A stretch of DNA of 64,000 nucleotides from Bacillota bacterium (GTDB lineage: Bacteria > Bacillota_C > Negativicutes > JAEYSJ01): positions 15,019 to 79,018 of the forward strand of contig JAEYSJ010000073.1 of the NCBI GenBank assembly GCA_023434855.1, read 5' to 3'. Below, piece after piece: positions 7,257 through 50,594 of the stretch. The notes beneath the pieces were generated by a model that was not told where the DNA came from, searched no databases, and saw nothing but the letters and a program-made list of their open reading frames with translations. The translations under genes were made by a program, and so were the position numbers. Within the stretch, counting starts at the first letter, position 1; every line of letters starts with the position of its first letter.

Positions 7257-7326
7257 TAAAAAAAGGCAGTAAATTACCACGAACTGAGTAATTCACTGGC
7301 CTTTAGCTTTAATAGTCTAATCAGCC
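7257..7326 (-). promoter_or_regulatory. Conserved GCTGA-stem-AGGC leader, copy 1 (before pair A)
   Basis: On the minus strand: GCTGA, stem TTAG/CTAA around an A/T-rich loop, then AGGC opening a long hairpin (GGCCAGTGAATTAC / GTAATTTACTGCC), then a T7 tract. It lies between the 114-residue ORF and NifD-like gene A with no clear promoter of its own, so it may act within a longer transcript. Confidence 0.8.
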
Positions 7327-7350
7327 AAATATGCTGTTTGAATCAGGTGA

Positions 7351-7695
7351 TCACATCATGCCCCATTTACGCGCATATTCCAAATATATTTGGAATTCGT
7401 GCTCGTGAAAGCCTTTCTCCAATAAATAATTCTTGGCATCCCAAGCACCCAATTCAGTAGAATCCGCGTAAATATAACCTTGTCTAGCCTTAAAGGAAAA
7501 TCCTTTATCAGCTAAAGCATCCATCATCGCCGCTACCCGCTCAGTACGCTGCGCAAGAGAGTCACCAAATGCACGGACATTATCCGCTGTAGGTGGCTGT
7601 TCCGTAGAGATCATATCATAAGGCAGCGGTTGTTCAACAAGGCTTAAAATAATGCGGGTAACATGATCAACAACCGGTTTATATTTGCTTCCCAA
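7351..7695 (-). CDS. Hypothetical protein of 114 residues downstream of the YeiH-type transporter
   Basis: I do not recognise a family. It is a soluble, helical-looking protein rich in charged residues, ending in a conserved-looking block GFHEHEFQIYLEYARKWGMM. It starts 22 bp after the end of the YeiH-like gene, behind AAGGAAG, and so belongs to the same transcription unit, under leader copy 2. It sits just before leader copy 1 and pair A. A role tied to the transporter or to sulfur metabolism is guilt by association only. Confidence 0.6.
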   Translation of the reverse strand: MGSKYKPVVDHVTRIILSLVEQPLPYDMISTEQPPTADNVRAFGDSLAQRTERVAAMMDALADKGFSFKARQGYIYADSTELGAWDAKNYLLEKGFHEHEFQIYLEYARKWGMM

Positions 7696-7717
7696 TTGCC
7701 CATCACTTCCTTCATTA

Positions 7718-9076
7718 TCATTTTATACCCAGCCAGTATTCTACGAAGACGACATTTGATAACAAGTAGCCCAAAGGAACATTAATAGCCACACCAATGG
7801 CGAAAGCGGCAAACGGCTTCCAACCGAAGGACGTAAGCTCACGAAAACGGGTAGTAAAACCAATGCACAGGAACGTCCAGGTAAACGCCCAGCCGCGCAG
7901 AATTTTGATAGTGCCAATCACTTCCTTGGAATACAATGTGCCTAACTTTGGTTCTAAACTGAAAATGACCAAGGTGGTAAAAATCGAAGCAATGAAGAAG
8001 CCAATAACAAATTTAGGAAAGCGATTCCAAATCTCAGCAATATTAATTGGTTCGCATTGATTTGGCAGCGTTGTCTGAAAAGTTTCTTCCTTTTTGTCCT
8101 TTTCCCAAACTGCAACTGATAAAATAGCAGTAACCAACGCCCATACACCTATGAACATATCCCGGCCGATAACTTTCATCAGGGTAAAAGTTTTTACCGC
8201 CCGTTCGTCGGCAATGGCTTCCGCTGCAGCGAAGCCTGCAGCATCGGCAAATTCGGAAGTACCAATCCATGCGCCGGCCGGCCCGGGAAGCAAGCCTAAA
8301 GATTTACATATTGCCGGCAGCACGAAAATCATGGCTACAGCCCAAATAATTACCAATGATATCGCAACAGACACATGTTCTTTCTCAGCGCGGCACGCAC
8401 CGCCAACGGCAATCGAGGCTGATACGCCACAAATCGACCCGCCCGCGCCTAACGTAGCGCCAAATCGAGGGTCTAACCCAAAAAGTTTGGTGGCTGCGAA
8501 ATAAATAGCAACAAAGGTTACCACTGATACAATGGTTGCTTGTATGATAGCCAGCGGACCAGCCTGGAGAATAATAGTGAAAGGTAAGGTAGCTCCCATT
8601 AGAATAATACCGGTTTTCACATAAAACTCTGTCCGCAATGCCGAATGAAACCACTGTGGCAATGTTAATGTATTGCTGATGATCAAACCAAACAAAAGAG
8701 CCAGCAATGGACTTTCTAATTGCCAATCCTTCACAAACTTGTTTGCGGCAACAACCGCTATCAGCACAGACACAATGTAAAGAACGGTAAAGCCCGCAAT
8801 GTAATGTTTTATTTCAAAGCCCATAATTCTTGCTGCCAGACTAAATAGTATGAGGAAAAAACCGAATAAATAAATTAGACCCCATGAATTTTGCACAAGG
8901 CTGGCTAGCACTTTACCACCGTCAGACCAGCCGGGAAAGTTAACTGCCATGGTTTTAAAAATACTAATACCACCGCTGAAGAATGTAAGGGTCGTTATCA
9001 GAACTAACCCCAACGCAATAATAATTGACCAATAATCTTCTTTTTTGTACCATGCATTGATCCCAAAGCCTGCCAT
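7718..9076 (-). CDS. YeiH/UPF0324-family membrane transporter (putative sulfate/sulfur-oxyanion exporter)
   Basis: About 452 residues with ten or so hydrophobic segments. The family core is visible: LLALLFGLIISN, VKTGIILMGATLPF, and GAGGSICGVSASIAVGGA, a glycine-rich segment typical of UPF0324. Family members are annotated as putative sulfate or sulfonate-related transporters, for example near sulfoacetate and taurine genes, but the substrate is poorly proven. The ATG at 9076 is chosen over one at 9124 because GGGGGGAA lies at good distance. It is preceded by leader copy 2 and a good sigma-A promoter, so it is part of the sulfur regulon. Confidence 0.82.
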   Translation of the reverse strand: MAGFGINAWYKKEDYWSIIIALGLVLITTLTFFSGGISIFKTMAVNFPGWSDGGKVLASLVQNSWGLIYLFGFFLILFSLAARIMGFEIKHYIAGFTVLYIVSVLIAVVAANKFVKDWQLESPLLALLFGLIISNTLTLPQWFHSALRTEFYVKTGIILMGATLPFTIILQAGPLAIIQATIVSVVTFVAIYFAATKLFGLDPRFGATLGAGGSICGVSASIAVGGACRAEKEHVSVAISLVIIWAVAMIFVLPAICKSLGLLPGPAGAWIGTSEFADAAGFAAAEAIADERAVKTFTLMKVIGRDMFIGVWALVTAILSVAVWEKDKKEETFQTTLPNQCEPINIAEIWNRFPKFVIGFFIASIFTTLVIFSLEPKLGTLYSKEVIGTIKILRGWAFTWTFLCIGFTTRFRELTSFGWKPFAAFAIGVAINVPLGYLLSNVVFVEYWLGIK

Positions 9077-9138
9077 GAAATTCCCCCCATTTTTTCGACA
9101 ATATTGAATCCGAATGCCCCGCAATTACACCAGGGCAA

Positions 9139-9200
9139 ACAAAAAAGACCAAGGTGTTCCCTCAAGCGGAACATCCTTAGCCTTTGGTTTTCCAATCAGC
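9139..9200 (-). promoter_or_regulatory. Conserved leader, copy 2 (before YeiH-type transporter)
   Basis: GCTGA, stem TTGG/CCAA, then AGGC opening the hairpin GGCTAAGGATGTTCC / GGAACACCTTGGTC and a T6 tract. The TTGG/CCAA stem is a compensated variant of the usual TCAG/CTGA. Confidence 0.82.
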
Positions 9201-49033: not shown

Positions 49034-49063
49034 TATCTATTTCCTCCCCAATAAAGACCTATA

Positions 49064-49123
49064 AGGAATAAAAGCTAAGACATTCCTCCTCGGTCTGCCT
49101 TAGCCTTCAGCTTTCTGATCAGC
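49064..49123 (-). promoter_or_regulatory. Conserved leader, copy 20 (before pdxS)
   Basis: GCTGA, stem TCAG/CTGA with loop AAAG, AGGC, hairpin GGCTAAGGCAGACC / GGAATGTCTTAGC, then TTTTATT. It lies between metY copy 2 and pdxS, so it is intercistronic. Confidence 0.83.
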
Positions 49124-49154
49124 TATTATTGTAAATTTTATACCAAATATTCGA

Positions 49155-50438
49155 CTATTTGATTGCTGCAAGCGCCTGGTCAAGATCATCAATAATATCC
49201 TGCGCGTCTTCAATACCGACGGACAGGCGAACCATATCATCCGGAACTCCTGCGCTGGCTCGCTGTTCTGATGTAAGCTGGGAGTGGGTGGTACTTGCCG
49301 GATGGATAACAAGCGACTTGGCATCACCAACATTAGCCAGCAATGAAAACAATTTCAAAGAGTCGATAAGCTTTTTACCTGCTTCCAGCCCGCCCTTAAT
49401 ACCAAAAGTCAGAATGGCTCCAGTGCCTTTAAGGTACTTTTCTGCCAGGCCATGGTCCGGGTGGCTGGGCAAACCAGGATAACTTACCCAAGAAACCTGT
49501 TCATGCTGCTCCAAATATTCAGCAACGGCCTAGGCGTTCTTACTGTGACGCTCCATACGCAAGTGCAAAGTCTCCAGCCCCTGCAGGAATTGAAAACTAT
49601 TGAAGGGACTTAAGGCAGCTCCCAAATCACGCAATATTTGTACGCGCAAACGAATAATGAACGCCAGTGGTCCAAGCGCTTCGGTGTATCGTAAGTCATG
49701 ATAACTGGGATCAGGCTCACTTAGCAACGGAAATTTGCCATTATTCCAATTAAATTTGCCGCTGTCAACTACCAGTCCGCCCATAGAAGTGCCATGTCCC
49801 CCGATAAATTTAGTCGCGGAATGAACGACAATATCTGCGCCAAAATCGATTGGGCGGCAAAGGTACGGAGTGGCAAAGGTGCTGTCAACAATAAGCGGAA
49901 TACCATTATTATGCGCAATTGCGGCTACTGATTCGATATCTAAAACATCGATTTTAGGATTACCGATGGTTTCCGCATATACCGCTTTGGTATTGGCAGT
50001 TATCGCCCGCTGAAAATTCTCCGGATCTTTAGGGTCAACCAGCTTTACCTTGATTCCTAAACGCGGTAAAGTATAGGAAAACATATTATATGTACCACCA
50101 TACAAAGTAGCCGAACTTACAATCTCGTCGCCCGCTTGGGCAATATTCCAGATCGCAGCGCTAATTGCGGCATGACCTGAAGCAAATGCCAGCGCCCCTA
50201 CGCCGCCTTCCAACGCGGTAATCCGTTTTTCCAATACGTCTGTAGTAGGGTTCATTATCCGCGTATAAATATTGCCAAATTCTTTTAAGCCAAAAAGATT
50301 GGCCGCATGTTCACTATCCCGGAAATTATAGGATGTCGTCTGAAAAATAGGCACCGCTCTTGACCCTGTTGTAGGATCAGGCTCTTGTCCACCATGAACA
50401 GCAAGGGAATTAAATCGTAAGTTTTCTGGTAATGTCAT
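49155..50438 (-). pseudogene. metY: O-acetylhomoserine sulfhydrylase (MetY), copy 2, with in-frame TAG
   Basis: The frame is 427 codons, full length and collinear with copy 1, but broken by a single TAG at 49530-49532. Both halves keep the same frame (residues 1-302 and 304-end). The TAG sits in HSKNA*AVAEYL where copy 1 has SNAQKVAEYL, so one CAG/AAG-to-TAG change explains it. The PLP lysine motif (VHSATKFIGGHGTS) is intact. It may be a recent nonsense mutation, a sequencing error, or a suppressed amber codon. RBS AGGAGGGTA. Behind leader copy 21. Confidence 0.8.
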
Positions 50439-50533
50439 TTTGTACCCTCCTAAAACTATGTGATGAACAGATTCTCTATTCCTTTATGAATCAACAATCG
50501 AAACTTTCGCGAAAAGTCATAAATTCGATACAG

Positions 50534-50594
50534 CAAAAAAGCCAAGAAATAGTTCCATAAGAACTATTTCTTGGCCTTCAGTCTTCTGATCAGC
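50534..50594 (-). promoter_or_regulatory. Conserved leader, copy 21 (before metY copy 2)
   Basis: GCTGA, stem TCAG/CTGA with loop AAGA, AGGC, hairpin GGCCAAGAAATAGTTC / GAACTATTTCTTGGC, then T6. The loop is AAGA in this copy, ATAA in copy 19 and AAAG in copy 20, so the loop is not conserved. Confidence 0.87.

Follow-up and report, generated by a model that had tools for sequence, protein, structure and literature searches.

A recurrent hairpin-terminator leader before sulfur genes in Negativicutes and other bacteria, and DUF2292 (YezD/OscA) as its predicted antitermination protein

Leader hairpins and a candidate binding protein

We analyzed a stretch of 64,000 nucleotides from a Bacillota bacterium of the Negativicutes (assembly GCA_023434855.1, contig JAEYSJ010000073.1, positions 15,019 to 79,018; hereafter the window), in which a conserved 5' leader recurs before sulfur genes. 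Each leader is a short hairpin, part of whose sequence also belongs to an intrinsic terminator, and the leaders are probably antiterminators, which proteins of the DUF2292 family (PF10055; YezD, OscA) are predicted to bind and to stabilise when sulfur is short. With slightly less assurance, we propose that DUF2292 forms a new class of RNA-binding antiterminators that recognises the GCUGA/AGGC hairpin and controls a regulon for sulfur starvation, with as many as about 40 leaders in one genome, in Bacillales, Negativicutes, relatives of Heliobacterium and 'Deltaproteobacteria', nitrogenase-like sulfur-salvage operons included. Protein-dependent antitermination for sulfur starvation is the most likely explanation of the leader system. 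If it is correct, a widespread family of unknown role would acquire a function, a new RNA-protein pair would join the few known antitermination systems, and a sequence signature would be available to list sulfur-starvation genes in many genomes, among them the nitrogenase-like genes found here.

Detection of the leader in the window

The first-pass annotation of the window, made from its sequence alone, had described 21 leaders, 20 on the minus strand and one on the plus strand. A covariance model (R1) built from 58 leaders, of which the window contributed 15, recovers all 21 on these strands between 7255 and 50594, with 33.5-60.1 bits and E <= 1.6e-6 (the E-values are rough, owing to a short calibration), and six of the 21 were outside its training set. 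The remaining 11 matches up to E = 5 comprise nine opposite-strand images of leaders and two weak matches (E ~0.2). The bare pattern GCTGA-N4..24-AGGC is matched 34 times in the window vs. 8.84 times (standard deviation 3.33, largest 19) across 100 shuffles. When GCTGA-N4..20-AGGC was searched without a stem requirement, an in-register stem of at least 4 bp was found in 15 of 17 intergenic matches vs. one of 11 intragenic ones. Every one of the 21 leaders, spread over 43 kb, is oriented toward a downstream gene, and three tandem pairs are formed (19465/19341, 42261/42177 and 44261/44168). The leader at 30046-30106 has an upper stem of just 2 bp, and that at 19341-19413 has no clear T tract. 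A further pattern match, at 7487-7512, lies within the open reading frame (ORF) 7351-7695 and has no T tract 3' of it. Genes without a leader of their own inside the interval are the ORFs in 19808-21484 and 25566-28001.

The suggestion that the element differs from known RNA families was borne out by Rfam release 15, of whose 4227 families none matched the window at the gathering threshold; in E-value mode, three sub-threshold matches were obtained (mir-7445, rnk_pseudo and ceN40; best E 0.23).

RNA structure and covariation

From 5' to 3', the element consists of GCUGA, an upper stem, a free loop (usually 4-5 nt, as in 149 of 214 matches), the second half of the stem, AGGC opening the terminator stem, and a U tract. 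This arrangement, with AGGC doubling as the start of the terminator stem, is seen in the 21 leaders as originally described, and the upper-stem variants listed at that time are present in the window; the upper stems include UCAG/CUGA, UUAG/CUAA and CUGG/CCAG. Outside the stems, conservation is confined to the nine positions of GCUGA and AGGC, and the conserved part spans about 20 nt. Because the leader finders partly impose the invariance of U3 and AGGC in the alignments, we draw no inference from it. A sigma-70-like promoter score of at least 9 was found upstream of 15 of the 21 leaders vs. 16.7% of random sites, and the RNA start is predicted at a median of 23 nt 5' of GCTGA.

Folded alone, all 21 window hairpins adopt the form (((..(stem-loop).))), i.e. 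a lower helix of GCU/GGC type (three pairs in 19 hairpins, two pairs in two), a GA/A internal loop and then the upper stem. Since GGC is needed by both structures, hairpin and terminator are mutually exclusive, in agreement with the early proposal that the first helix competes with the terminator. The computed free energies (dG) of the 21 window leaders range from -1.4 to -6.8 for the hairpins vs. -13.9 to -33.2 for the terminators; as the hairpin is far weaker than its competitor, a stabilising partner is likely.

In the upper stem and terminator, 221 cells are changed on both sides vs. 65.5 in shuffles, and the covariation score is 0.695 vs. 0.238 in shuffles and 0.185 in the best slid version, in an alignment whose rows had been chosen for pairing. 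Evidence on the lower helix comes from leaders of the form ACTGA...AGGT, in which the G1-C pair has become A1-U and the terminator is altered to match. Nine copies occur in four of 15 DUF2292 regions (L157, L159, L161 and L166), taken mostly from genomes with zero or one R1 match; the scan demanded lower pairing, and its reversed-sequence control gave 0. Without that demand, 91 distinct matches were obtained (GCT/GGC 67, ACT/GGT 7, ACT/GGC 1, others 16), and all three lower pairs are present in 78 of these vs. four of 14 in the reversed control. The lower helix is therefore supported by a paired swap that occurred in some lineages.

A second model, R2, was built with variants of the ACTGA...AGGT type, the variant rows coming partly from genomes G063, G087 and G114. 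It finds 5-7 copies each in G019, G063, G087 and G114 (six in G019) and one each in G034, G071 and G197, and is positive in seven of 21 R1-negative genomes with DUF2292 vs. none of 19 DUF2292-free genomes. The matches outside its training set are those in G019, G034, G071 and G197, of which G019 is, by its DUF2292 protein, a close relative of training genomes.

Another variant, GGTCA...AGCC (possibly a change of C2-G to G2-C), was seen at L158 10533, L164 10113 and L165 9994, and GGTTA...AGCC at L162 2761 (= L131 ~1462), over the start of a DUF2292 gene. In L162 the bases after the variant could pair over the DUF2292 ribosome-binding site, which would make a translational version of the control. 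As a leader form, GGTNA...AGCC is suggestive only, because one match within a DUF2292 coding frame (L167) and one in the reversed control came from the same scan, which covered 14 loci.

Distribution and downstream genes in other genomes

Many other bacteria have the leader as well, and DUF2292 is encoded in most of their genomes. An exact pattern scan of named genomes yielded at least 118 matching stretches, and the 80 of these that were listed include Bacillaceae, Lysinibacillus, Heliobacteria, Sporomusa, Pelosinus and termite-gut 'Deltaproteobacteria'. The covariance-model search likewise extends the element beyond Negativicutes to Bacillales, relatives of Heliobacterium and termite-gut 'Deltaproteobacteria'. 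Pelosinus propionicus alone has 39 leaders at E <= 1e-3.

The 118 loci hold 184 leader copies, which lead to 152 distinct downstream proteins; ten copies have no ORF behind them. Among 150 downstream proteins scanned, with counts covering the 25 commonest families per library, we found sulfate-binding proteins (18), the cysteine synthase family (13), ABC ATPases (13), phosphoadenylyl-sulfate (PAPS) reductases (8), pyridoxal-phosphate-dependent enzymes of the Cys/Met type (8), DUF2292 (5), NifH (4), NifDK (4), URO-D (4) and TauE (3). The MetN model is matched by 11 of the 13 ABC ATPases, of which some are probably ABC ATPases of another kind. The sulfur regulon that had been proposed from the window recurs elsewhere, with sulfate-binding proteins, cysK, ABC ATPases, PAPS reductases and metY-type enzymes behind the leader.

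Two sets of matches were set aside: a pattern match in Butyrivibrio (L035) is probably due to chance, the genome having no PF10055 match and an R1 match of merely 4.2e-4, and the R1 matches of genome G206 look like plain terminators. In a record titled Bacillus subtilis DE0224 (L037/L187), of which the species name may be wrong, the leader precedes cysC-like and sulfate-assimilation-like genes; 5 kb further downstream, in the same orientation, lies yezD.

Co-occurrence of leader and DUF2292

In order to compare leader and protein, we scored 392 genomes from four groups for PF10055 over its cut-off and for R1 at E <= 1e-4; 90% completeness was requested for three groups and not for the class of the termite-gut 'Deltaproteobacteria'. 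Summed over the groups, 132 of the 156 genomes that have DUF2292 contain a leader, vs. 16 of the 236 that lack it; Fisher p-values for this comparison are too small owing to the relatedness of the genomes. In the class of Pelosinus (Negativicutes) the figures are 52/63 vs. 10/87, the latter ten having one match each, and every Negativicutes genome in which at least two leaders were found (46 in total) has DUF2292. The order of Niallia (Bacillales) gives 42/52 vs. 3/68, and the class of the termite-gut 'Deltaproteobacteria' (that of G008) 27/27 vs. 3/33. For the class of Heliobacterium (11/14 vs. 0/48), the 11 genomes with a leader are exactly those with solid DUF2292 matches, and the three misses are marginal matches of 24 bits. 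To control for specificity, we searched the 62 genomes of this class for the BglG-type domain PF03123; it occurs in two, neither of which has the leader, and hence in none of the 11 leader-bearing genomes. Escherichia coli, which was among 14 control genomes, gave no PF10055 match.

Gene order also connects the two. Among 63 DUF2292 matches in Bacillales, a same-strand leader lies no more than 50 nt downstream of 27 and no more than 300 nt downstream of 30, and a leader is found upstream within 800 nt for nine. The usual order in the loci inspected is yezD, leader, cysH-like gene (the last assigned by eye), and an annotated Cytobacillus plasmid shows YezD, leader, phosphoadenylyl-sulfate reductase (cysH), phosphate-type permease, sat, cysC and nitrite/sulfite reductase. 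Two Negativicutes have the order DUF2292, leader, cysK-like gene (again by eye), and the window has two leaders, DUF2292, a further leader and nifH.

The DUF2292 protein

The DUF2292 gene of the window (41651-42079) went unnoticed in the first-pass annotation. Its product matches PF10055 at 44.8 bits over two stretches (cut-off 22 bits), and PF10055 was the sole match in a Pfam scan at E 0.01, with no CAT_RBD (PF03123) and no ANTAR domain. Like OscA of Pseudomonas and YezD of Bacillus, it belongs to a family of small proteins, but it is of double length and reaches 26.9 bits against NF033785 (OscA, sulfur starvation response), below the equivalog cut-off of 85; a DUF2292 protein of 52 aa from Niallia likewise stays below it with 45.3 bits. 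The AlphaFold2 model shows two helix-strand-strand copies, with a mean predicted local distance difference test score (pLDDT) of 69.9, a core of about 90 and low-confidence ends. A sequence search of the PDB gave no relative (best E 0.12), and comparison of the modelled fold gave no convincing structural relative and, among the matches listed, no known RNA-binding family.

In passages of PMC2996968 and PMC3596284 that cite Viti et al. 2009, oscA is presented as a small gene whose function is unknown and which is transcribed together with the gene of a sulfate-binding protein; inactivation of oscA led to chromate sensitivity, and the title of the cited study ties oscA to the sulfur starvation response of Pseudomonas corrugata. 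The mechanism proposed below agrees with this link, though the cited passages leave the sign of control unfixed. Searches of open-licence papers in PubMed Central (PMC) gave no account of this leader, nor of a molecular function for DUF2292, OscA or YezD.

The DUF2292 proteins compared are poor in sulfur amino acids, with 0.24% Cys and 0.65% Met vs. 1.03% and 1.42% in leader-controlled proteins (32 DUF2292 proteins, close relatives of each other). For the DUF2292 genes of G089, G077 and G022 (class of Pelosinus) and of G007, some genomes have an adjacent pair of single-domain frames (~60-100 aa) and others one double-domain gene, a split or fused pair. A tblastn search for DUF2292 on plasmids returned ten records (nine Priestia and one Cytobacillus), and a second query Cytobacillus and a Novosphingobium plasmid. 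On the latter (AP026900.1, L180), from an alphaproteobacterium, a gene for the ATPase of a sulfate ABC transporter comes first, and the DUF2292 gene that follows overlaps its end.

Proposed mechanism and alternatives

Computation and genome comparison show the alternative structures, the covariation, the regulon and the co-occurrence; binding by DUF2292, its sign and its signal are inferred. By default, without the protein, the nascent RNA would form the terminator and transcription would end. DUF2292 would recognise the GA/A internal loop of the hairpin, probably by means of two helix-strand-strand units, and, once bound, would keep GGC in the hairpin; the terminator would then lose 3-4 basal pairs beside the U tract, and RNA polymerase would pass. 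The DUF2292 gene is predicted to control itself in this way via its own tandem leaders.

The anatomy and the co-occurrence would be the same if the sign were opposite, with leader-bound DUF2292 promoting termination under plentiful sulfur; in Bacillales, moreover, DUF2292 is often encoded ahead of the terminator and could be made while the cys genes are off. We nevertheless regard this as unlikely, because formation of the hairpin is incompatible with the base of the terminator, so that a stabilised hairpin should promote read-through.

Some observations weaken the case for antitermination by DUF2292. The leader was not detected in 17 of 156 DUF2292 genomes, and three genomes of the termite-gut class (G355, G393 and G394) hold 3-9 leaders with no PF10055 match, which may reflect incomplete bins or a different partner. 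DUF2292 was also the sole regulon gene compared as a correlate, and the family might be a member of the regulon and not its regulator. The leader would then be real and answer to another trans-acting factor, protein or RNA, with DUF2292 merely a frequent member of the sulfur regulon. Such members would be expected to carry the leader themselves, as DUF2292 genes do in the window and in five of the 150 downstream proteins, and 16 of 236 DUF2292-free genomes give a leader match. Yet the small DUF2292 gene sits at the leader even in Bacillales that have few copies, and, in the class of Heliobacterium, none of the 11 genomes with a leader encodes the BglG-type CAT_RBD; another factor appears quite unlikely.

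The first-pass annotation had left open whether the element is a riboswitch or an attenuator, and whether it senses a sulfur metabolite or binds a regulator. A metabolite riboswitch, in which the hairpin alone would bind a sulfur compound without the help of a protein, would account for a cis-acting leader with a terminator and sulfur genes downstream, and for the strong conservation of GCUGA and AGGC, which the finder partly demands. We consider it decidedly unlikely: conservation outside the stems is limited to the nine positions, with a free loop, no Rfam family matches, the presence of the leader tracks DUF2292, and the predicted promoters leave so little 5' RNA that there is scant room for an aptamer. 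The attenuator half of the original alternative is favoured by the competing helix and terminator, and regulator binding is strongly favoured by the short conserved part, the free loop, the nearby promoters and the co-occurrence with DUF2292 in four groups.

That the leaders are nothing more than intrinsic terminators of the genes upstream, decorated by chance, is highly improbable, for although the terminator half is ordinary and some leaders lie close behind an upstream gene, this would not explain the in-register stems in intergenic matches (15/17), the promoter-like sites just upstream, the compensatory changes in the hairpin, the 21 copies in 43 kb that each point into a downstream gene or the 39 copies at E <= 1e-3 in one genome.

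Comparison with known antitermination systems

In the BglG/SacY/LicT systems, a small RNA-binding protein stabilises an imperfect ribonucleic antiterminator (RAT) hairpin that overlaps an intrinsic terminator, and the regulator gene lies beside the target site. The system favoured here, antitermination by DUF2292, would be similar, with a small imperfect hairpin 5' of an intrinsic terminator and sharing bases with it, a putative regulator gene beside the target site and a small protein that would stabilise the hairpin. It appears to differ in its RNA, which has one GA/A internal loop and a GCU/GGC helix, an internal-loop pattern other than that of the RAT, and it differs in that the DUF2292 protein is not a CAT_RBD protein. 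Protein-dependent antitermination at leader hairpins, as predicted here, is also known from the ANTAR proteins EutV and NasR. ANTAR RNAs, however, are pairs of hairpins with conserved hexaloops, whereas the leader is a single hairpin with a free loop, and its proposed partner has no ANTAR domain. Terminator-type control of sulfur genes is shared with the S-box (SAM-I), the T-box and other sulfur riboswitches, but no Rfam family, SAM-I and T-box included, reaches its gathering score in the window. On the protein side, the nearest known counterparts are OscA and YezD, of which oscA lies beside sulfate uptake genes and is tied to sulfur starvation.

Gene neighbourhood in the window

The leaders and the genes behind them are listed in the table. 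Leader targets in the window are cysK (twice, once within an operon), metY (twice), metNIQ, YeiH, pdxS, pepV, a porin and corrinoid genes, and further nifH, nifB, a NifX-like gene, DUF4418/MacB-like genes, DUF2292 and all four nifDK-like pairs.

Table. Leaders of the window, the genes that they precede and the DUF2292 gene (coordinates are those of the window)
Feature	Coordinates	Strand	Score and remarks
Leader and terminator before nifDK-like pair 5725-7221 / 4386-5732 (PF00148)	7255..7325	-	R1 39.8 bits, not in training set
Leader before YeiH-like permease 7718-9124 (PF03601)	9137..9200	-	R1 56.9 bits
Leader before DUF4418 / MacB-like ABC exporter genes 9328-11654	11899..11956	-	R1 49.4 bits
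Leader before nifDK-like pair 13270-14751 / 11970-13286	14774..14837	-	R1 37.8 bits
Leader before pepV-like dipeptidase 15551-16816	16836..16898	-	R1 49.3 bits
Tandem leader 1 before metNIQ 16947-19322	19465..19528	-	R1 47.4 bits
Tandem leader 2 before metNIQ 16947-19322	19341..19413	-	R1 33.5 bits, not in training set
Sole plus-strand leader, before nifDK-like pair 22103-23566 / 23567-24868	21975..22042	+	R1 57 bits
Leader before metY 28144-29457	29470..29542	-	R1 44.9 bits
Leader before NifX/FeMo-co-like gene 29538-29963 (PF02579)	30046..30106	-	R1 34.9 bits, not in training set
Leader before nifDK-like pair 33692-35032 / 31994-33616, cysK 31038-31967 and ABC ATPase 30141-31031	35120..35192	-	R1 44.9 bits, not in training set
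Leader before nifB-like 39097-40422 and sulfonate-type ABC transporter genes 35338-39137	40440..40498	-	R1 54.4 bits
Leader before nifH-like 40556-41431, directly after DUF2292 gene	41455..41529	-	R1 48.1 bits, not in training set
DUF2292 (PF10055) protein, 142 aa; proposed RNA-binding antiterminator	41651..42079	-	PF10055 44.8 bits, cut-off 22
Tandem leader 1 before DUF2292 gene (predicted autoregulation)	42261..42335	-	R1 50.9 bits, not in training set
Tandem leader 2 before DUF2292 gene	42177..42241	-	R1 53.6 bits
Tandem leader 1 before SLH porin-like gene 42612-43952	44261..44323	-	R1 53.1 bits
Tandem leader 2 before SLH porin-like gene 42612-43952	44168..44234	-	R1 38.7 bits
Leader before DUF1638 / corrinoid protein / MtaA-like methyltransferase genes 44430-46942	46927..46989	-	R1 54.5 bits
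Leader before cysK 47059-47994	48022..48084	-	R1 60.1 bits, best match
Leader before pdxS 48152-49033	49063..49123	-	R1 52.2 bits
Leader before metY 49155-50438	50530..50594	-	R1 58.2 bits

The DUF1638, corrinoid protein and MtaA-like set (44430-46942, minus strand) stands behind a single leader, which the listed ORF start of the set overlaps; an ATG is present behind the leader. The set recalls the type 1 mlp clusters described in PMC10418091, where corrinoid clusters of this type with MarHDK-like genes are proposed to have a role in methyl-sulfur or methyl-selenium metabolism. In the minus-strand metY at 49155-50438, codon 303 is an in-frame TAG, after which the frame continues to its normal end; the other metY, at 28144-29457, has no interruption.

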